This document shows, piece after piece, positions 1-32,276 of a DNA stretch of 32,276 nt. The position numbers and the translations under genes are program-made. Location of the stretch: the IMG/VR virus record IMGVR_UViG_3300017734_000039, positions 1 through 32,276 of that record, one strand, 5' to 3'. This stretch comes from a virus. The notes beneath the pieces are model-generated. The model worked only from the letters and a program-made list of their open reading frames with translations, had not been told where the DNA came from and ran no database searches. Positions within the stretch are counted from its first letter, which is position 1; each line of letters begins with the position of its first letter.

Positions 1-123
1 CTACAGTATAGTTGGTAAAGGTACTCCACTGTCCAAAATAGTAGTTGTAGACTAGGATGTTACCGCCATCTGTAGTAAATCTTACTTCATTAACATCATC
101 CAATAGGTTAGCACTGGTGATAG
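1..123. repeat. Terminal duplication marking a circular assembly (left copy)
   Basis: These 123 bases are identical to 32154-32276. The duplicated stretch lies inside a protein-coding gene, and the reading frame stays open through the join. This is what an assembler leaves when it closes a circular or circularly permuted molecule. A true T7-type terminal repeat normally sits outside genes, so I read this copy as redundant. Confidence 0.95.
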
Positions 124-7946: not shown

Positions 7947-8426
7947 TTAAATAACCTTTCTATGCTCTATTAGAGCATTTATCATTAATTTTGTTTCTTC
8001 AACAGAGAAATATCTGTTTCGGGTTTTGTTACATATAGTACAGCAAGGTAGAACATTAGTTAGTGTGTACCCAACATCATTGTCTATCCTATCAAGTCCT
8101 GAGCCTCCTTGAGTTTTTCTATCCCCGATTTGGCCATTACAATAGTAACATTCTTCTTTTAGTAGGATATAAAATTCATCCTCTGTAATTGTCCATTGGT
8201 GTCCACGTTTGGCAGCAGCCCTAATACTTGTTTTGTATCGTGTTCTAGGTTTTTTGCTGTCTATTTTAGCTTGCTCATTGACTTGCTCTCGCCTACTCCA
8301 CCGATATTGTCTAGTGGCCTCTCTAGCACAGCTTTTGCAGTGTGATTGTAGTCCATCTTTACTTTTGACGGCTTTGTGGAACTCTGTAAACGTCTTATGT
8401 TCTTTGCATTTACTACATTGTTTCAT
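7947..8426 (-). CDS. Free-standing HNH homing-type endonuclease, next to the capsid gene
   Basis: 159 residues. The N-terminus is a zinc finger (CSKCKEHKTFTEFHK, then CKSC). The nuclease part is a variant HNH fold: CYYCNG, the metal-binding segment GLDRIDNDVGYTLTNVLPCC, then CTICNKTRN, so two further Cys pairs bind zinc. A basic helix links them. It overlaps nothing and sits between the capsid terminator and the decoration-type gene, splitting an otherwise standard head cluster. That suggests a mobile gene inserted beside the capsid gene. Expected activity is cutting of intron-less or marker-less alleles. Confidence 0.85.
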   Translation of the reverse strand: MKQCSKCKEHKTFTEFHKAVKSKDGLQSHCKSCAREATRQYRWSRREQVNEQAKIDSKKPRTRYKTSIRAAAKRGHQWTITEDEFYILLKEECYYCNGQIGDRKTQGGSGLDRIDNDVGYTLTNVLPCCTICNKTRNRYFSVEETKLMINALIEHRKVI

Positions 8427-13272: not shown

Positions 13273-14034
13273 TCACCTAAAGCCTCTTAATTTCTTTGCC
13301 ACATATTCTGTCGGATGCGGGTCTTGTTGGGAGTCATTCCACCAGTACACACATTCTTCTGCTTCCTGGCGGGTCAGACCAGCCCTCTGCGCGGACTTGA
13401 ACACAATATACATATGAGGGGTTCTGCAACCAACCCCCCGCACTGCAAGCAAATTAAGGTGCAACTGAAACTCAGCTTCTGGCGATCCTTCCTCCTGTGC
13501 CCAGTCTTGGACACCACTTGCAATGGGCGGGGGGGTCAACATTGGGATCACCAATGGAGTTCCTGCAATCTCACGTACTATTGTTTTTCTACGTCCCGTC
13601 TTCTGGTGTATTGCACCAAGAGCACGAAACTGGCCCGCAGGCCTGTAGATACTAGTATCAACCAGTTCCCACAAGCCTGCGCTTTTTAACCATCTCTTTT
13701 GACTGTAAATGGTATTTGGCCCAAGTAAAGGAGAGGTGGCCACTTCGGCATGAATCCCGCGATTGCCTGTACTCAGTATCTTGACTGGAGCCTTCAGGTC
13801 TTCTAGGATTGCTGTAGCTTTGGCAACATGCCCTGGCTTGTCGATGTCAATGTACAATGTGTCACTGTATACTGAACATCCATCAAGGTTCTTCATGTGG
13901 CCTTGTGTTTCTATTTTGTTAACGGTTTCTGGGGGAAAACAATATACACTGTGGAAATTGTAATCACCAGGATTTGATTCGGCAAGCTTAGGCTTACCAT
14001 ATCGTACTACGGACTTTCGCCACTCTCTTTTCAT
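13273..14034 (-). CDS. AEP-family primase (primase/primase-polymerase catalytic domain)
   Basis: 253 residues. The three catalytic motifs of the archaeo-eukaryotic primase superfamily are visible in order. Motif I is TLYIDIDKPG, with D63 and D65 as metal ligands. Motif II is STGNRGIHAEV (S88-H95). Motif III is ELVDTSIYRPAGQFR (D126), followed by the supporting GAIHQKTGRRK segment. The last ~80 residues form a small helical domain (LLAVRGVGC, RAGLTRQEAEECVYWWNDSQ) resembling a PriCT-type helical tail. No helicase domain is fused and no helicase gene is found. The enzyme should make primers, and some relatives also extend DNA. It sits directly downstream of the large terminase. Confidence 0.75.
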   Translation of the reverse strand: MKREWRKSVVRYGKPKLAESNPGDYNFHSVYCFPPETVNKIETQGHMKNLDGCSVYSDTLYIDIDKPGHVAKATAILEDLKAPVKILSTGNRGIHAEVATSPLLGPNTIYSQKRWLKSAGLWELVDTSIYRPAGQFRALGAIHQKTGRRKTIVREIAGTPLVIPMLTPPPIASGVQDWAQEEGSPEAEFQLHLNLLAVRGVGCRTPHMYIVFKSAQRAGLTRQEAEECVYWWNDSQQDPHPTEYVAKKLRGFR

Positions 14035-14096: not shown

Positions 14097-15566
14097 TTAC
14101 CATCCTGTCTCCCATATATCTTTGTCTTTACCCATACCAAACTCAGCCTCAAGCCAGTCTTCTTCTTCATCAACCTGCTTCTTCTGCTCTACTTTCTCAC
14201 TCTCTTTCTCCCACCACTGATCAACAGCAGCTTCAGATGTAGGGGCATGTCTGATTTCTCTAACATCAGGTCTGTAATTTAAACAGTAGCGCCAAGCGTA
14301 TAACATGGCATCACATAAATGATTAGGGCACGCCGGATGCTCTTTCCAGATGCCCGCTGCTCTCTTACGCTGATCCCAGATTAAGTTTGCCATCTCATCA
14401 GCAAGCTCATAAGTCTTAGACTCTACTAAAAGTACCTTATTGTTCTCCAAATCACTGTTTAAGAGTTCCACGAAGTCCTTCTTACCGTGTTTCTCGGCAG
14501 CTATAAGGGGCAGGTTATGCCTTTGCTTAAGCTCCTCTACGGCCTGTTTGGAGGCCCCATCGACTATCATAGTGTGGAAGGAGTATCGGCTTTGTAATTC
14601 CCGTACCTTATCAGCAACATCACTGATTATCATCTCACCCTGCTTGTAAGTCTCTACAATATATAGGCTAGGGTCATAGTCAGTGTATGCACAAACAACA
14701 AAGGCTGTAGGATCATTGTACCCAAGGTCAAGCCCTAGTACGTAGTTCCACTCATCTCTGTGGTCAGGCAAGCTCTTGATAATGTTGTCACCATTAGCTT
14801 TGTAGATAGTAGCATCAGTATCGATAGCCCATTGGTTCAAATACATACGTTTGAATCCTGGAGTCTCTTTGATCTCTGGATTACGTGCTATCATCTCTTT
14901 TATTTCTTTGTTGAGTTTGTCTCTCATATATGGATTATCAGTACCAGCCCATTTGTGTGTGCTCCATCCCTTTTCTTCGCCATGCATAACACGATAAAAT
15001 AAAGAGTTAGTAATATCACTGGTGGTGGATATCATAATAATCTTACCCTTAGCGCCATAATCCATAGTGGCAGGCTTAAGGATATCATAGACTAATTCAT
15101 TCAGATTAATCCTAAAGAAAGCAGCCTCGTCAATAACACATGTGAGGTATTTACCCCCCAGTATCTTGTTCATCTGTCCTTCATCAGTATCAACACCCAT
15201 AAGGATAATCTTCGATCTGTTAGGTAGTCTCATGGACAAATCTGCGATATTAAAGGTAGCCCCTAAGTTATACGTTCTATCGATCTCCCGCAGGACATTA
15301 TCAAATAGGATATTCTTAGCTGATTGCCTAGTAAGTGCCATATAAAGACTGACACTGCGAGGGTTCTCATAGGCTCCCTTAATCAATGCAAGGCCCGCCC
15401 CATAGGACTTACCTGATCTTCGGGGACACTGCACACTAATTAAAGGTGCAGCATCATTAATAAAATCATTCTGTGCATCAAAATCAGGAGTGTACCAACT
15501 AGGCTGTTTACTTGCTTTTCTTAGCTCTGCCGCCTTTATTAGTGCTTGTATTTCTAGTTTGTTCAC
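14097..15566 (-). CDS. terL: Terminase large subunit (DNA packaging ATPase-nuclease)
   Basis: 489 residues. The ATPase domain shows Walker A CPRRSGKS (47-54, K53) and Walker B LTCVIDE (141-147, D146-E147), with a likely coupling MISTTSD at 178-184. The C-terminal nuclease is RNase H-like, with acidic residues D280 (GLDLGYND), D336 (MIVDGAS) and D419 (HLCDAMLYAWR). It packages DNA into the prohead through the portal. The start is GTG with AGAGGAG at good spacing; the first 59 bases overlap the 84-aa gene. It is followed by the primase and, ~1.5 kb on, the portal. Confidence 0.93.
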   Translation of the reverse strand: MNKLEIQALIKAAELRKASKQPSWYTPDFDAQNDFINDAAPLISVQCPRRSGKSYGAGLALIKGAYENPRSVSLYMALTRQSAKNILFDNVLREIDRTYNLGATFNIADLSMRLPNRSKIILMGVDTDEGQMNKILGGKYLTCVIDEAAFFRINLNELVYDILKPATMDYGAKGKIIMISTTSDITNSLFYRVMHGEEKGWSTHKWAGTDNPYMRDKLNKEIKEMIARNPEIKETPGFKRMYLNQWAIDTDATIYKANGDNIIKSLPDHRDEWNYVLGLDLGYNDPTAFVVCAYTDYDPSLYIVETYKQGEMIISDVADKVRELQSRYSFHTMIVDGASKQAVEELKQRHNLPLIAAEKHGKKDFVELLNSDLENNKVLLVESKTYELADEMANLIWDQRKRAAGIWKEHPACPNHLCDAMLYAWRYCLNYRPDVREIRHAPTSEAAVDQWWEKESEKVEQKKQVDEEEDWLEAEFGMGKDKDIWETGW

Positions 15567-15762: not shown

Positions 15763-15937
15763 TAGCTTCTCTCTCCATAGCTTCTTTTAGCTTTACTCTT
15801 AGCGCACTAGCTTTCCCCTTGAAGTATTCCCTATCAAGTTCAGCTTGTCCAAGTCTTGAGCATGTATCAACATACTCTTGTTTTAATTCTCTCATAGCCT
15901 GTAAAGCTTGTTCACTTTCTTTAAGTGTCTTTTCCAT
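15752..15937 (-). CDS. Small coiled-coil protein
   Basis: 61 residues, helical throughout (LKESEQALQAMRELKQEYVD; KGKASALRVKLKEAMEREAN) with heptad spacing. The start overlaps the preceding stop by one base (TAATG) and has AAGGGT upstream. Translational coupling with the GNAT gene is likely. No domain is recognised. Confidence 0.65.
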   Translation of the reverse strand: MEKTLKESEQALQAMRELKQEYVDTCSRLGQAELDREYFKGKASALRVKLKEAMEREANGE

Positions 15938-16380
15938 TATTTACCCTTTCGTGTCTCTAGGAGATATGGGTTATATACCACATCATATTTGGTTACTACT
16001 TCACGCCACTCGCGAGGTAAGTGTGTAAAAAACTTAATATTGTCTGGGTTAGGCTCTAGTTGTGCAACAAGTGCTGCTGCTATTCCTAACTTTCTAAAAT
16101 TATACTTGACATATACATAATGTATTGTGGACACTGCTGGAGTTTTCTCTAGGCAAGCAAACCCATATATCTGGGCAGGGTTGTCAGGATTAACAGCCAG
16201 CAGTATATCAACACTGTCATCACCAAGCAGGCTTGAGACAATAAGCTTGTGATTACTAAAGAATACATCACTAACCATGGTTTTTCCACATGGGGAGTCT
16301 TTGTACGACTTCAGCCAAGCGTTATATATAAACGATTCGTCCCCAGCATTAGGGGTTCTAAATTCTATCGGAAGCTTCAC
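15937..16380 (-). CDS. GNAT-like N-acetyltransferase (first of two)
   Basis: 147 residues, starting at GTG behind GAGGAGAATAGA. The core shows GNAT order: a helix with NAWLKSYKDSP, strands LLAVNPDN and IYGFACLEK, then motif A VYVKYNFRKLGIAAALVAQL (~90-108), whose R-K-L-G-I-A loop binds the acetyl-CoA pyrophosphate. The C-terminus is the expected beta-alpha end. The acetyl acceptor is unknown; phage GNATs may modify host proteins or small molecules. It lies in the early/packaging block. Confidence 0.72.
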   Translation of the reverse strand: MKLPIEFRTPNAGDESFIYNAWLKSYKDSPCGKTMVSDVFFSNHKLIVSSLLGDDSVDILLAVNPDNPAQIYGFACLEKTPAVSTIHYVYVKYNFRKLGIAAALVAQLEPNPDNIKFFTHLPREWREVVTKYDVVYNPYLLETRKGK

Positions 16381-17182: not shown

Positions 17183-17220
17183 TGTAAACAGGCCCCGCAT
17201 CCAGAGCACCGCTGTTTACA
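17183..17220. repeat. Perfect 9-bp inverted repeat at the exonuclease stop
   Basis: TGTAAACAG at 17183-17191 and CTGTTTACA at 17212-17220 are exact inverse copies, 20 bases apart. The right arm covers the exonuclease stop codon. No U run follows on the minus strand. It could be a protein-binding operator or an RNA hairpin. The remainder of 17081-17215 contains the terminator and no well-supported gene. Confidence 0.6.
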
Positions 17221-18055
17221 ATTTAATTGGAACAAGCAGTCCCATATCTTCTTTTTTTGAATCTAATTTATACCGATTTCGGTAATATACACCAAGGTCA
17301 GGATTGATATACATCTTGTATTCGGTTCCTGTGTTACTGTTGGTCCATACACCCTGAGACTCAAGCTCCTTGCCGGTAACCCTACATGAAGGTACACCAG
17401 GAATTGACAAGTCAACACACTTGTTAGGATAGTACGCACAAGTACGTTCATATACCTTGAACAATGTATTATAGATGTCACCTATATTGTATTTCATCAT
17501 CTCGCGAAATGCGTCAATGTCACCATCAGCACACCGGTCCCACAGATCATAACCTACAGATATCTTGTGTGTGCCAATCAGTGAATGGCTGAGGTAATCA
17601 AGCTTTTTGGAGTTCATATTGAATCCATTCAAGCCTTTGTAAGTGCAAACAACCTTATAGGGGGATGGTAATTTCATCCCAAGCCGTAAGAACCTTCCTT
17701 GTAGCCAGCCTTGGTCAAACCGAGCGTTATGGCAGACAATTGTATCGGCCTCATCCAGTATTTTCCACACATATTTCAACACTTCAGTATCGTCTATAGG
17801 ATTGTCTTTGAATGTGTCAAACATGTGGTTCCCTACTCCCCACACACCAGCTTCCCCTTTTGTGTACAGATCATACATGGAGCCGCCCGCTGCGGACAGT
17901 AATCTTGTTTCATCTTTTACCTGATCAATACGGATATACTGATTTCCTGTTGAAAATATCCTAGCTGTAACTAAACTTGTCTCAATATCAAGCAGGACGC
18001 AGCGTTTCATTTTCTCGGCCACAATTGGGTTACTTATATTAAAGTTCGCTTTCAT
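17216..18055 (-). CDS. Stand-alone DnaQ-like 3'-5' exonuclease
   Basis: 279 residues of an RNase H-fold exonuclease. Exo I is LLDIETS (D23, E25), Exo II is CHNARFDQGWL (D114), Exo III is MMKYNIGDIYNTL (Y189 and D193). Between them PYKVVCTYKGL, KKLDYLSHSLIG and LWDRCADGDIDAFREM match the phage-type exonuclease pattern. There is no polymerase domain: the ~75-residue extension (NKCVDLSIPGVPSCRVTGKE onward) is too short. It should degrade or proofread 3' ends, perhaps recycling host DNA or assisting replication. Its start overlaps the HNH gene stop by four bases (ATGA). Confidence 0.82.
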   Translation of the reverse strand: MKANFNISNPIVAEKMKRCVLLDIETSLVTARIFSTGNQYIRIDQVKDETRLLSAAGGSMYDLYTKGEAGVWGVGNHMFDTFKDNPIDDTEVLKYVWKILDEADTIVCHNARFDQGWLQGRFLRLGMKLPSPYKVVCTYKGLNGFNMNSKKLDYLSHSLIGTHKISVGYDLWDRCADGDIDAFREMMKYNIGDIYNTLFKVYERTCAYYPNKCVDLSIPGVPSCRVTGKELESQGVWTNSNTGTEYKMYINPDLGVYYRNRYKLDSKKEDMGLLVPIKL

Positions 18056-18621
18056 ATATTGTCTTTCTTTCTTCTATTTTCTCTACGAGGGAGCACCTGT
18101 AAGTTAATCGGTATGCGCTTTCCGCCCGTTGCTATAGGAAAAATGTGATCTACTTCGTAAGGCTCTCCAAAAAGCCTTGTCATTATACTTGCTCTTTTGT
18201 ATATGCTCTCTATCCACCTCTTTTCTCGTGGCGTGAGAGGCACTTCAGACTTGCTCCTGCGCAGTGCTCTTGCTAGTCTCTTCTTTTCTTTTACTTCTGG
18301 TCGTTGGTGATAGTCTTCCTTCAGATAATCTTGGAACTTCTCTTTATTTGCTTCCATCCACTGGCGGTTCTGTTCCTGCTTCTCCTCTTTGTTATTAGTA
18401 TACCACTTCTTGTGGTATTCCTTATGATACTTTTGGTACTTTTCTTTATTAGCTTTCCTGTACTGTTTATGATATTCTGATACACAGGATTTACACCCAC
18501 GGCCCGCTTTCGTAAAGTATTGCAATTGCTTAGACATATGACACATAGAACAGTATTTATGTCCATACGGCTTAATCATCTTTGTATACTTTATTTTTTC
18601 ACTGTGATTTAATTCTTTCAT
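18052..18621 (-). CDS. HNH endonuclease (second)
   Basis: 189 residues. An N-terminal zinc finger (CSMCHMSKQLQYFTKAG, CKSC) leads into a long, very basic Lys/Tyr/Glu helix region (KYQKYHKEYHKKWYTNNKEE) and a C-terminal HNH motif: YEVDHIFPIATGGKRIPINL, then NLQVLPRRENRRK. The D-H pair and downstream Asn/Arg are the active-site residues. It overlaps the exonuclease start by four bases, so it is translated with it. It is probably a homing-type endonuclease in the early region, unrelated in its middle part to the one near the capsid gene. A role in host DNA breakdown is an alternative. Confidence 0.85.
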   Translation of the reverse strand: MKELNHSEKIKYTKMIKPYGHKYCSMCHMSKQLQYFTKAGRGCKSCVSEYHKQYRKANKEKYQKYHKEYHKKWYTNNKEEKQEQNRQWMEANKEKFQDYLKEDYHQRPEVKEKKRLARALRRSKSEVPLTPREKRWIESIYKRASIMTRLFGEPYEVDHIFPIATGGKRIPINLQVLPRRENRRKKDNI

Positions 18622-19651: not shown

Positions 19652-19823
19652 TGTCTCGTTATCCTTATGTCTTAAAACTAGATGTCACTGCTGTGCATCA
19701 TATATAGAATGAGCGGGAGCCATAGAGACTCCCTATACTCCCCGATGACTAGCGATCAACTCTGTGAACATGTTTAGGGGAAGTTATTATATTATATTGA
19801 AATCCTTAAGAAACTGACTGGCC

Positions 19824-19837
19824 CCCTCAAATGAGGG
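19824..19837 (-). terminator. Leader hairpin, proximal
   Basis: On the minus strand CCCTC-ATTT-GAGGG follows. The region after it is only moderately U-rich (GTTTCTTAAGG). It lies in the leader between the leftward promoter and the first early gene, so it may act as a weak attenuator. Confidence 0.4.
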
Positions 19838-19882
19838 AACCTATCACGAAAACAAAAATCAGATATCACTAAGAAAAGATTA

Positions 19883-19903
19883 CACAGGCATAAATAGCCT
19901 GTG
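19883..19903 (-). terminator. Leader hairpin, distal, terminator-like
   Basis: On the minus strand CACAGGC-TATTTAT-GCCTGTG is a perfect seven-pair stem followed by TAATCTTTTC. It lies ~135 bases downstream of the predicted leftward start and just after the two 22-bp repeats, a layout compatible with attenuation or antitermination. Confidence 0.5.
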
Positions 19904-19925
19904 ATAGTATTATTACTGAGTTACT

Positions 19926-19990
19926 ATCCATCAGCATTGGGTACTGCTTGTTGTATACCCAGGGTACCATCCATCAGCATTGGGTACTGC
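19926..19990. repeat. Two exact 22-bp direct repeats in the leftward leader
   Basis: Identical 22-base copies lie at 19926-19947 and 19969-19990, 43 bases start to start. Their core on the + strand is CAGCATTGGGTACTGC. Both fall inside the predicted leftward transcript between its promoter and the first hairpins. Candidate roles are a DNA operator, an RNA antitermination site, or phage-polymerase promoter elements. Confidence 0.8.
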
Positions 19991-20043
19991 ATGATATATG
20001 TATATAGCATTGACCACCAGCTGTCTCATTGTACCTGTATCTA

Positions 20044-20072
20044 ATTGTACAGATTTCCACAAGGCTTGTCAA
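20044..20072 (-). promoter_or_regulatory. Leftward sigma-70-type promoter for the early block
   Basis: On the minus strand a perfect -35 TTGACA is followed after exactly 17 bases by -10 TACAAT (five of six). Transcription would begin near 20037 and enter the early genes after a ~385-base leader. It is the only strong leftward match in the control region. Confidence 0.8.
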
Positions 20073-20121
20073 GCACTAATTTATACCTATCTGGTATAAT
20101 ATACTCAATAGCGTCCTCGTT

Positions 20122-20155
20122 CGACTCTCATTTCGAGCTGTCGCTCTCATTCGAG
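20122..20155. repeat. Imperfect CTCTCATT-CGAG repeats
   Basis: CGACTCTCATTTCGAG (20122-20137) and CGCTCTCATTCGAG (20142-20155) are near-copies in tandem. A related ACTCTCATTTGACACTC lies at ~20372. They lie upstream of the leftward promoter, and look like protein-binding iterons, but the role is unknown. Confidence 0.5.
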
Positions 20156-20183
20156 TCTCACTCTAGGGGGATTCTCTCCCCTC

Positions 20184-20294
20184 CTATCTAAAGGGCACCC
20201 CAAACTTTTAGTGCCTCATTCTGGGCATTTGCAGCTGTCTGCTGATGCCTTGCCTCCCAATTCGGAGGTGTTCTCTATCTAAAGGGCACCCCAA
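20184..20294 (+). repeat. Two exact 20-bp direct repeats containing TAAAGGG
   Basis: CTATCTAAAGGGCACCCCAA occurs at 20184-20203 and again at 20275-20294, 91 bases apart, with different flanks. The TAAAGGG core resembles the start-site part of T3 promoters (CACTAAAGGGAGA), which suggests, without proving, a phage RNA polymerase promoter or a regulator site reading rightward. Confidence 0.6.
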
Positions 20295-20550
20295 CGTGAT
20301 TCACAACAATATCAGGAGGTTGCAGTACCCCCCCCTACTGGATAGGTTGCGTGATTAGTTTCCCTGCGCGACACTCTCATTTGACACTCTTTCGTGGTGT
20401 CTGGGAGGCAAATACCTGCATATGCCCTGGAGAGTTACAAAATGGCTTTCTGAGGCCCGTTTTAAACTTTCAGGTACATTGCTATTCCAGACGGCCAAAG
20501 GCGCTCAGATCGCCTGTTTTCAATTATTTTAACTTTTCGTAAATTAAGGG

Positions 20551-20579
20551 TTGACAAACCGGGTCAATTAGTGTAAGAT
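20551..20579 (+). promoter_or_regulatory. Rightward sigma-70-type promoter 1
   Basis: TTGACA, a 17-base spacer, then TAAGAT (four of six against TATAAT). An AT-rich tract follows. It drives toward the 73-aa gene and the RNA polymerase. Confidence 0.65.
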
Positions 20580-20690
20580 ATATATATAAGGCAAAGAGTT
20601 TCTCCACAGATGCTGCCGTATACTTGATTTTACCCCTAATTTACTGTACGGTAGTAATATCAACCAGTTATCATTTTTATCACTTTTTGC

Positions 20691-20718
20691 TTGACAGGAG
20701 TGTAATACAGGGAATAAA
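20691..20718 (+). promoter_or_regulatory. Rightward promoter 2, weak candidate
   Basis: TTGACA at 20691-20696, followed after 16 bases by AATAAA (four of six). The -10 is poor, so this may be only a -35 look-alike between two better promoters. Confidence 0.35.
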
Positions 20719-20756
20719 AAAAGAACCCAATGATTTCCGTTGATTACATTTTTTAC

Positions 20757-20785
20757 TTGACAAAATCGGATTTTTGGTGTATAAT
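20757..20785 (+). promoter_or_regulatory. Rightward consensus sigma-70 promoter 3
   Basis: TTGACA (20757-20762), 17 bases, TATAAT (20780-20785): a full consensus. Transcription would begin near 20792, giving a leader of about 58 bases before the 73-aa gene. It should be a strong host-polymerase promoter at the start of infection. Confidence 0.9.
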
Positions 20786-20810
20786 AAGGGTATAAACAAA
20801 AAGTTATTCT

Positions 20811-20826
20811 CCCACAATTTCGTGGG
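20811..20826 (+). promoter_or_regulatory. 5' leader hairpin of the polymerase transcript
   Basis: CCCAC-AATTTC-GTGGG forms a five-pair stem ~20 bases from the predicted 5' end and before AAAGGAAAG. It may stabilise the mRNA 5' end. Confidence 0.5.
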
Positions 20827-20849
20827 ACAACAACAAAAGGAAAGAAATT

Positions 20850-21116: not shown

Positions 21117-23330
21117 ATGGAAAACAAGACACAAATAGAATTTCAGCGTAACAAAAACATAGAGCGTAAGGAAGAAGTAGCCAAGCGCATCGAGACCAGC
21201 CGAGCTGAAGGTACATACGACCTATTCACTGATAATGATATGATTATAACATTCAGTGACCACCTGAGGGAGCAGCACAAAGCTCTGACATCCAGATCAG
21301 CATTGTCCAAGTTTATCGCCACCTTACAGGACCAGAAAAAATCCGGCTCCATATTCATTGATGACAAAACAAGCATTTACGATGTGATATCAGTAACCGT
21401 CTACAAGTTTATCATCTCCAAGATGTTCACGCAGACGACCCGCAGTGACCTAGTGTTTGGTATGAACTTACTGTACTGCTGGGAAAATGGTGCAGCATTA
21501 TATCTTGTTGAGGAGTTTACAAATCTTTTCAGTGATAAGATCGAAAAAGAATCTGTGGTTGTTGAAGGTAAAACAGAAGTGCAGATATTCCCAACTGAGG
21601 AGTTCGCAGAGGAACTTGAGCAGCATGAAGCTATATTATTGGAAAGCCAGAAGGTATTTTGGCCCCTAGCAGTGAAGCCAAAGGATTGGACACAGTATCG
21701 TGATACTCCATTCCATGACCCTCTTATTTCATATCAGATTGTTCGGAGAAAGTTCAATCCCACAAACTTTAACCTACAAGGCATGTTTGATGTTGCCAAT
21801 GGACTCGCCAGCACTTCCTTTAAGGTTAACGCGCTGGTTCTGGATCGAGCCAAGCAGGCCCTTAGGTCTCGCAACATGAACATCTTTAAGAGCAAGAAGT
21901 ATTCTGCTTGGGAAGACCGAAGCGCAAAGCGCGGCAGTAAATCCAGTGCCTTACGTAAGATAAAAGCTGCTTTAAATGCTGCCGAACACTTCAGAGACTC
22001 TGAGTTTTGGCATGTATGGTGTATGGATTACAGGGGGCGCTGTTACGCAGTAGACCGTATCCTTGACCCACAAGGTTCCGAACTGGAAAAAGCACTTCAC
22101 ATAGCCAGTGAAGCCGTCCCTGTAGGTGAGTCTGGTATTCGTGAGCTTAAGATTGCCTTGATTACCGCCATGGGTGACGACAAGATCAGCCTGGTAGAGC
22201 GAATTGCAAAAGCAGAAAAATTGCTTGAGGATGGCACACTAGGACAATGGGTACTAGGTACTGACAATGGCTGGATGGATGCTGATGAGCCTTTCTTTGC
22301 CCTGACATATGCCAACGAGCTAGTCAAGTGGAAGGCTTCTGGTTATGACCTGAACATGAAGTCAGGTGTATTTGTTGCTGTTGATGCCTCTTGCAGCGGC
22401 ATGCAACTAGCCGCAGGTATCCAAAAGGACGAGAGCCTAGCAAGCCTGGTTAACATTGACACCAGTGACAGCGTAGGCGACCTGTACTCAGCCGTAGGAC
22501 GCGCAGTACACGACCACTATGAAGGGCCTCTGAAGGATCGCATACTCAATCGTAAGATATGGAAGCGACCTACAATGTGTACTCTTTACAGTTTGACCTT
22601 TATTGGTGCATGGAACTACATCAAAGAAGAGCTAGATAAAGACACTACAATCAACGAGTGGGGCCATGAAACAGTTACCGAAACCATAAATGGGCAAAAA
22701 GTGACAGTGGAGCGTGTAACTGAGGAGTACAAGAAGGAGCTGACAGCGCTGACGAACATCTTCTTCAACAAAGCAATGCCAGCAGTAGCCCCCCAAGCCT
22801 TCGAGATACTTGCTATTATGCAAGGATGGGCCAAGGATGTCTGCAAAAGCGAAGAGTTCAAAAAGACTGACACACTTAAGTGGACAACTCCAAGCGGTAT
22901 GATTGTTAACCAGCGTCAAATGGTTATGAAAAAGAGACGTATTAAGGCGTGTCTATCAAATCGTACAAAGGTCCAGCACACTATTCAGGAGCCAACTGAC
23001 AAAGTTGATGCTAAAAAACATGCATCCTGTATCGCAGCAAACATGATCCACAGTATGGATGCTGCTGTTATGTGGGGTGTTGTACTAGGGATGGCCAAGC
23101 AAAATATGCCAATGCTTCATTGTCACGACGCTTTCGGCACTGTCCCAGGCCATGCCGCTGAAATGGGCAGGATAATCCGTGAAGTGTTTCTTCAGGTTGT
23201 TCTTGATAACCCCCTGGAAGCTGTGAAAAAAGAGCTAGAAGGCCGATACAACATTACGTTGAGAGACCTTCCGGCACCTGGGGAATTGGACGTGAAGGTA
23301 ATTCTGCAGTCCCCCCACGCCTTCAGATAA
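21117..23330 (+). CDS. Single-subunit (T7-like) RNA polymerase
   Basis: 737 residues, shorter than T7's 883. The catalytic residues are present: D423 in VAVDASCSGMQL (T7 D537), R479/K483/Y491 in RKIWKRPTMCTLY (T7 R627/K631/Y639), and D671 in LHCHDAFGTVP (T7 D812). CMDYRGRCYAVDRILDPQG at ~302-320 matches T7's MDWRGR element, and KKHASCIAANMIHSMDAAVM the region after the specificity loop. The N-terminal ~180 residues are poorly conserved, and much of the length loss seems to be there. The end, PHAFR, differs from T7's FAFA foot. It should transcribe phage late genes from its own promoters. It is encoded on the opposite strand to nearly every other gene, behind host-type promoters. Confidence 0.95.
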   Translation: MENKTQIEFQRNKNIERKEEVAKRIETSRAEGTYDLFTDNDMIITFSDHLREQHKALTSRSALSKFIATLQDQKKSGSIFIDDKTSIYDVISVTVYKFIISKMFTQTTRSDLVFGMNLLYCWENGAALYLVEEFTNLFSDKIEKESVVVEGKTEVQIFPTEEFAEELEQHEAILLESQKVFWPLAVKPKDWTQYRDTPFHDPLISYQIVRRKFNPTNFNLQGMFDVANGLASTSFKVNALVLDRAKQALRSRNMNIFKSKKYSAWEDRSAKRGSKSSALRKIKAALNAAEHFRDSEFWHVWCMDYRGRCYAVDRILDPQGSELEKALHIASEAVPVGESGIRELKIALITAMGDDKISLVERIAKAEKLLEDGTLGQWVLGTDNGWMDADEPFFALTYANELVKWKASGYDLNMKSGVFVAVDASCSGMQLAAGIQKDESLASLVNIDTSDSVGDLYSAVGRAVHDHYEGPLKDRILNRKIWKRPTMCTLYSLTFIGAWNYIKEELDKDTTINEWGHETVTETINGQKVTVERVTEEYKKELTALTNIFFNKAMPAVAPQAFEILAIMQGWAKDVCKSEEFKKTDTLKWTTPSGMIVNQRQMVMKKRRIKACLSNRTKVQHTIQEPTDKVDAKKHASCIAANMIHSMDAAVMWGVVLGMAKQNMPMLHCHDAFGTVPGHAAEMGRIIREVFLQVVLDNPLEAVKKELEGRYNITLRDLPAPGELDVKVILQSPHAFR

Positions 23331-31283: not shown

Positions 31284-31619
31284 TTATATTCCTTTATAAA
31301 AGTATATGATTTCTTTATCAGATTCCAAAAATTGCATCCCATGAGCCAGTAACACAGCTATGGAATCAGTGGGAGAAGAAGAGTTAGTAGCCACAGAGCC
31401 AAGGAGGTATTTAGCCCCCTCAGCAGCAGCAATAGCCTGAATCTCTTCAGACAATACACTAGCTAATCCATCTTCTCTTCTATCAGGTACTATGTAAATG
31501 TCTTCTATATACACTCCTCGCTCCCCTTTTACAGTAAGGTAGCTATAGGTAGCAAAGCCCCATTCTTTCTCCAACACGTTGAAGCCTGGGTATCTCTCTT
31601 TCTGGTAGTCAAACCACAT
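31284..31619 (-). CDS. GNAT-like N-acetyltransferase (second)
   Basis: 111 residues. EKEWGFATYSYLTVKGERGV, then motif A: VYIEDIYIVPDRREDGLASV (residues ~36-55), in which R-E-D-G-L-A forms the acetyl-CoA loop, then the helix LSEEIQAIAAAEGAKYL and a C-terminal strand/helix with HGMQFLESDKEIIYFY. This is a short but complete GNAT core lacking an N-terminal extension. It lies between the nozzle-like and internal protein genes. Small GNATs occur in this place in other podoviruses; substrate unknown. AAGGGATAAGGCG lies upstream. Confidence 0.78.
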   Translation of the reverse strand: MWFDYQKERYPGFNVLEKEWGFATYSYLTVKGERGVYIEDIYIVPDRREDGLASVLSEEIQAIAAAEGAKYLLGSVATNSSSPTDSIAVLLAHGMQFLESDKEIIYFYKGI

Positions 31620-31623
31620 CGCC

Positions 31624-32276
31624 TTATCCCTTTCGTCCTTCTCCGAGGTTCTTGTTGACGCCTCTCTTACTTCCGATCTCTAAAGTAAGCCCAGTGATCG
31701 CTGCACCTTCCCCAGAGCCGTCATTATCAGCATTGGAAAAGATATCCTCTATCTCTACCCTAACTGCTTGACATTTCTGCTTTTTCATGTGTAACTCAAA
31801 CTGATAGACATCTGAATTGTCAGTACCGTAGTTGTCAGACCCATATACACCATCTCCATAGAAACCGGAGTTAGCAGATAGGATTGAACTCACATCAAAC
31901 ATGTGCTCTTGTACTGGTATTACCGAATAGTCATTGTAGATTGTCATCTTTAGCATATGCTTGGACCTAAAATCACCAAGAATAGCAACTTTATAGACTC
32001 TTTGAAACCCCTGGATACCGCTTACCTTAATCCAAGGAGTCGTGATCTTAGAGTTTACAAAGCCCCCATTGTCCTTATACCCGTTATATTCTTGCCAAAC
32101 ATTGTCATTATCATCAATGAAAGTGTAAGCATTGTTGAATACAAGAGCATCATCTACAGTATAGTTGGTAAAGGTACTCCACTGTCCAAAATAGTAGTTG
32201 TAGACTAGGATGTTACCGCCATCTGTAGTAAATCTTACTTCATTAACATCATCCAATAGGTTAGCACTGGTGATAG
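31624..32276 (-). CDS. Tail nozzle / stabilisation-like protein, C-terminal part (continues from base 1)
   Basis: The last 176 residues of the 991-residue protein whose N-terminus is at 2446; bases 32154-32276 duplicate its coding from 1-123. Sequence includes EVRFTTDGGNILVYNYYFGQ, WSTFTNYTV, a YTFIDDNDNVWQEY strand pair, VYKVAILGDFRSKHMLKMTI, DYSVIPVQEHMFD and a VRVEIED segment before a basic Gly-rich tail. The series of strand pairs supports the beta-propeller reading. It ends four bases before the GNAT start, so the two genes are translated from one message. Confidence 0.78.
   Translation of the reverse strand, partial: ITSANLLDDVNEVRFTTDGGNILVYNYYFGQWSTFTNYTVDDALVFNNAYTFIDDNDNVWQEYNGYKDNGGFVNSKITTPWIKVSGIQGFQRVYKVAILGDFRSKHMLKMTIYNDYSVIPVQEHMFDVSSILSANSGFYGDGVYGSDNYGTDNSDVYQFELHMKKQKCQAVRVEIEDIFSNADNDGSGEGAAITGLTLEIGSKRGVNKNLGEGRKG
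32154..32276. repeat. Terminal duplication marking a circular assembly (right copy)
   Basis: Exact second copy of bases 1-123. Removing one copy gives a unit of 32153 bp. The copy lies in the coding region of the nozzle-like tail protein, which continues from base 1 into base 32153 on the minus strand. Confidence 0.95.

Follow-up and report, generated by a model that had tools for sequence, protein, structure and literature searches.

A free-standing archaeo-eukaryotic primase (AEP) with an intact predicted active site in a complete phage genome without the family-A DNA polymerase that accompanies its relatives

The virus record IMGVR_UViG_3300017734_000039 (32,276 nucleotides, analysed over its whole length and here called the window) encodes a free-standing AEP whose membership in the AEP superfamily is established by its motifs and its modelled fold. 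Homologous AEPs of uncultivated viruses are normally found with a family-A DNA polymerase (PolA), and no helicase was detected beside them; the window phage, in whose complete genome neither was found, appears to be a natural case of polymerase loss with the primase kept. We consider it fairly probable that the window AEP is a stand-alone primase with an intact active site, the primers of which are extended by a host polymerase. The gene and its parts are:

13273..14034, minus strand: predicted stand-alone AEP primase, 253 aa (motifs, homologs, fold, family and PDB profiles)
within 13273..14034, minus strand: catalytic AEP core (residues ~27-160) and probable PriCT-like helical C-terminus (~185-251)
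13840..13848, minus strand: motif I, D63-I-D65, predicted metal ligands (aligned to S-2L E85/D87)
13750..13773, minus strand: motif II, STGNRGIH (88-95), with T89, R92 and H95 predicted to bind nucleotide (sequence and S-2L alignment)
13657..13659, minus strand: motif III, D126, predicted metal ligand (sequence, homolog alignment and S-2L alignment)
13594..13626, minus strand: motif IV, R137-ALGAIHQKTG147, with R137 and H143 (spacing like S-2L D146/R157/H163; PMC8065100)

The reading frame starts with ATG, and has GAGAGA ahead of it as ribosome-binding site; the plus frame over this interval contains several stops. An earlier note, made from the letters alone, had read a full AEP active site into D63/D65, residues 88-95 and D126, followed by GAIHQKTG; all of these lie where it placed them (GAIHQKTG at residues 140-147), and the active site is borne out by the motif match, by invariance in 15 sequences and by the register with S-2L, the motif II triad by S-2L numbering being T89/R92/H95 and not S88. 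The note had also linked GAIHQKTG to primase-polymerases, a link that does not hold, since R137..H143 is the motif IV that is also present in archaeal PriS; the His, Arg and His of motifs II and IV form the HRH signature described for that protein (PMC5862659). The acidic pair of motif I, [ST]xx[KR]xxH and the Asp of motif III, which define the superfamily, are all present, and His95 of motif II, where RepB' would have Gln, is invariant in the 15 sequences. The pattern DxD..[ST]xx[KR]xxH..D-(10)-R-(5)-H was obtained in 5 of 200,000 shuffles of the window AEP and had no second occurrence in the six-frame translation of the window genome. Chance motifs in an unrelated protein were ruled out by the shuffle test and by top fold matches that are AEPs only.

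Used as a single query, the window AEP had no match in Pfam, NCBIfam or PDB, reached only E 0.28 as its best value against PHROGs, and gave no match among isolate phages at E 0.01, nor any listed up to E 10; single-sequence scans of IMG/VR and GTDB returned no relative. Its orphan status was dropped after RxPG[ST]xHxKTG, a degenerate DNA pattern built on the motif IV block, retrieved homologs. With a first version of the motif pattern, L010 was the only AEP retrieved, a distant stand-alone one among unrelated ORFs. The motif IV pattern gave five true homologs (phmmer E-values as low as 1e-18, for a small set), whose alignment then led to homologs at 18 loci on contigs of uncultivated viruses; isolate phages queried with two other family members, and GTDB queried with one, yielded no homologs. 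The window AEP matches the family over both the AEP core and the PriCT-like tail. The 15 aligned homologs are about 25% identical and all contain the catalytic residues: F27, S29, Y31, D63, D65, G90, G93, H95, D126, Y130, R137, G140, H143 and G147 are invariant, and the relatives have T/S and R/K at the positions of T89 and R92. The family matched the primase phrog_16345 (four of six members, 1.5e-5) and, weakly, PriCT_1 (PF08708) in the C-terminus (three of six members, best 8e-4). Neither PF08708 nor PF09250 was found in the window, for PF08708 including the AEP itself, for which a PriCT-like tail is likely.

Against PDB, the A2 profile of the family retrieved NHEJ polymerase, PriS and CAPP, with 5dmu matched at 3.3e-3, and hhalign placed all motifs of the family in register with S-2L kin (P 4e-4, probability 34%; unrelated control 0.5). 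An AlphaFold model built from 15 sequences (mean pLDDT 69, pTM 0.52) was good in the core and in the C-terminal helices, which extend over 185-251, and a poor single-sequence model (pLDDT 43) was left out of the analysis. The earlier note had proposed a structural comparison with PrimPol and RepB'-type AEPs and would have been refuted by a fold unlike AEP; this was not the outcome, as the top 14 PDB fold matches of the model are all AEPs, with a modest best E of 1.2e-3 and TM-scores of about 0.3: the AEP domain of S-2L PrimPol ranks first and RSF1010 RepB' third, with Prim-PolC and NHEJ/LigD polymerases among the other best matches. The first-ranked match and the register of the profile alignment might suggest that the AEP both primes and polymerises and is the phage's sole replicative DNA polymerase, as was proposed for S-2L PrimPol and shown for NrS-1 polymerase, perhaps with the phage exonuclease proofreading in trans; the invariant Tyr31 in FxSxY, outside the aligned region, could be a steric gate like S-2L Y63 (PMC8065100). 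A role as sole replicase nevertheless seems rather unlikely to us. Besides the AEP gene, the window contains:

1..123, identical to 32154-32276, no strand: terminal direct repeat (genome complete, ~32,153 bp unique)
14097..15566, minus strand: large terminase, directly upstream of the AEP gene and in the same direction (47% identical to L002)
17216..18055, minus strand: DEDD-type 3'-5' exonuclease, matched to phrog_403, 'DNA polymerase exonuclease subunit' (three of the AEP+PolA phages have homologs)
19652..20849, no strand: 1.2-kb non-coding divergent region with two direct-repeat pairs, separating the RNA polymerase gene from the main operon
21117..23330, plus strand: T7-like single-subunit RNA polymerase, PF00940 (profile match)

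The 123-bp terminal repeat, together with an ORF which is broken by the contig ends and whose two pieces align one after the other to a single 987-aa protein in a relative, indicates that the genome is complete, so that absences can be read as real. PolA was found at no threshold, and because the ORFs above 300 aa are all assigned (structural proteins, terminase and RNA polymerase), there is no room for another known polymerase; a hidden PolA or a truncated contig was excluded by the terminal repeat, the junction ORF and the failed PolA searches. The window yielded no DnaB_C, no Helicase_C and no convincing P-loop except that of TerL, which confirms the earlier description of a free AEP without helicase partner, neither fused to nor encoded with a helicase as in replicases of the S-2L/NrS-1 PrimPol type. 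Its position behind the large terminase was likewise correctly described (same strand, 62-bp gap). Nothing in the window phage was recognisable as an SSB, an origin-binding protein, a phage ligase or a Ku-like protein.

A PolA gene (PF00476) is present in the records of 17 of the 18 relatives, most of which are fragments, usually a few hundred bases from the AEP gene; the only record without it, G008, is a 10-kb fragment. The two genes are mostly neighbours that run in the same direction, with PolA directly upstream or with at most a protease gene and/or a small ORF in between; L021 shows the opposite order, and three ORFs separate the two. The intervening protease gene, as in L033 (9105-9959) and with homologs in 10 loci, encodes a ClpP-like prohead protease and so has its place within the replication module. 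Terminase, portal or acetyltransferase genes of several relatives are homologous to those of the window. No relatives' record contained DnaB_C, Helicase_C was found in none of eight phage records tested (with S-2L detected as positive control), and P-loop inspection revealed nothing helicase-like in G003, a relative that has PolA and ends in a terminal repeat of 99 bp; these absences refer to two Pfam families and a motif scan, which can miss atypical Walker motifs and did miss the S-2L SF2 helicase that Helicase_C caught. It thus looks as if the family ordinarily has a free AEP, no phage helicase, and PolA as the partner; the AEP is probably the primase of the relatives' PolA. The lack of a helicase, which the earlier note had singled out as special, is real but shared with the searched genomes of the relatives, whose AEP is accompanied by PolA; the peculiarity of the window phage is the absence of PolA.

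In the tree the branch leading to the window AEP is very long, at 7.5 changes per site, and the point at which it joins the family is without support; vertical descent and transfer are for these reasons inseparable, and we therefore only infer a loss of PolA in the window lineage. The terminase tree groups the window with L039, which has AEP and PolA, and with G001, which yielded neither of them. The phage L002 (also L015-L016; IMGVR_UViG_3300029156_000010, 35,034 bp, 99-bp terminal repeat) has a structural block syntenic with that of the window and a different early module, comprising an AAA ATPase, an apparent Erf-like annealing protein and an apparent YqaJ-like nuclease; neither AEP nor PolA was found in it. 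Replication modules seem to have been swapped wholesale in the window/L002 lineage. The exonuclease was considered as a remnant of the lost PolA and this was rejected, as relatives have a PolA with its own DEDD residues plus a separate homologous exonuclease.

The complete genome without any other DNA polymerase would suit a sole replicase. However, the AEP of the relatives coexists with a PolA bearing its own DEDD residues and need not be a replicase, the PrimPols of S-2L and NrS-1 have helicase domains (PMC8065100, PMC7102993) and the window phage has none, and phages below 40 kb often do without a polymerase and use that of the host, a statement for which PMC9860041 cites other work. We give little credence to the fullest version of this idea, in which, after loss of the partner PolA, a helicase-free AEP of 253 aa would be the only replicative polymerase of a 32-kb phage, with the DEDD exonuclease as proofreader in trans and the T7-like RNA polymerase opening the origin; if true, this would be a minimal replisome that needs neither a DNA helicase nor a conventional DNA polymerase.

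With terminase on one side and portal on the other, the AEP gene belongs to the structural-gene operon and not to the early genes. One might suppose that the primase is produced alongside the structural proteins, enters the virion and is injected, and then starts synthesis on the incoming DNA, but the AEP is not fused to other domains, the relatives hold the gene in a replication module, and a survey of injected polyvalent proteins found PrimPol domains only in conjugative elements and not in phages (PMC5512222); delivery in the virion is therefore very improbable. The displacement into the structural operon, the long branch and the profile similarity to NHEJ polymerases could also mean that the AEP is a relic or was retasked after PolA loss, for gap filling or end repair of phage DNA without genome priming. 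The frame is open, however, with a ribosome-binding site and every catalytic residue retained, and a phage ligase or Ku-like protein was not recognised, so we regard a relic or retasked AEP as distinctly unlikely.

Elsewhere in the window, probable homing endonucleases are encoded by two HNH/endonuclease VII-like genes, of which 7947-8426 comes directly downstream of the major capsid gene and 18052-18621 overlaps the exonuclease start, and two GNAT acetyltransferase-like genes are present (15937-16380 and 31284-31619), the first with terminase-near homologs in several records of the lineage. The T7-like RNA polymerase was found in none of the 18 relatives' records. The repeats of the divergent region (19922/19965, 35 nt, 89%; 20184/20275, 20 nt, exact) occur nowhere else in the genome, and 19652-20849 may be a candidate origin or promoter region; GC skew tracks the coding strand only and gives no clear origin. 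The 20184/20275 repeat, CTATCTAAAGGG, has the faint look of a T7-type promoter end.

For the reading that we prefer, a primase serving a host polymerase, we infer priming activity, use of the host enzyme and a role of the RNA polymerase as follows. Near the origin and along the displaced strand, the AEP would make short primers on single-stranded phage DNA, host Pol I, or Pol III, would extend them, and the phage RNA polymerase may open the strands and prime the leading strand, as in T7. An active site invariant in 15 homologs, the association of AEP with PolA in the relatives and a complete genome without PolA or a detected helicase argue for this, and there are precedents: Pol I extends the primers of ColE2 Rep, and Pol III those of RSF1010 RepB' (PMC4538821), and MPP-C cyanopodoviruses are podoviruses that have no polymerase gene and have kept a primase (PMC9860041). 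Against it stand the location in the structural operon, a nearest fold match that is a true DNA-synthesising PrimPol, the failure to recognise an SSB or origin-binding protein, and a branch length of 7.5, with which the function of the AEP may have shifted.

The fold, motifs and chemistry of the window AEP are already known. This AEP family, absent from the Pfam, NCBIfam, PDB and isolate-phage searches, its association with PolA without a detected helicase, and the polymerase-less variant were not found in the databases or literature searched. The two states, PolA present and PolA absent, make it testable whether the AEP takes over synthesis or recruits a host polymerase, and a compact, helicase-free AEP could serve as a useful priming enzyme.

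Among known systems, S-2L PrimPol (MW334946 S2L_32, PDB 6ZP9) resembles the window AEP in its AEP core, as the best PDB fold match and as the sole polymerase candidate of its own phage; its E85/D87, T112/K115/H118, D146, R157 and H163 correspond to D63/D65, T89/R92/H95, D126, R137 and H143 (PMC8065100), with identical spacings (D-R 11, R-H 6). Its 737 aa, however, also include PriCT-2 and, at the C-terminus, a helicase-like domain, and its phage has an SF2 helicase, compared with 253 aa and no helicase here. NrS-1 polymerase is likewise a phage AEP, one that primes and polymerises; it is fused to an SF3 helicase, and NrS-1 also encodes a helicase and an SSB (PMC7102993). ColE2 Rep is a free AEP primase that passes its primer to a family-A polymerase (PMC4538821) but is a plasmid protein with specific origin binding, and the window family has no Pfam Replicase match. 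RSF1010 RepB' shares an AEP with a C-terminal helix bundle and no zinc site, and primes for host Pol III, but in its family a Gln replaces the His of motif II (PMC5862659), and RSF1010 encodes a separate helicase, none having been found in the window phage. Free phage AEPs are themselves already known: in a Nodularia phage a stand-alone AEP is followed by a helicase gene, and L010 is another example. The AEP of L010 (9287-10168, 293 aa, on a 62.8-kb viral contig) has a C-terminal zinc-ribbon-like Cys-rich region and is followed by an apparent split family-B polymerase. The MPP-C cyanopodoviruses, like the window phage, are polymerase-less and have kept their primase, which in their case is a primase/helicase bifunctional protein and not a free AEP (PMC9860041).
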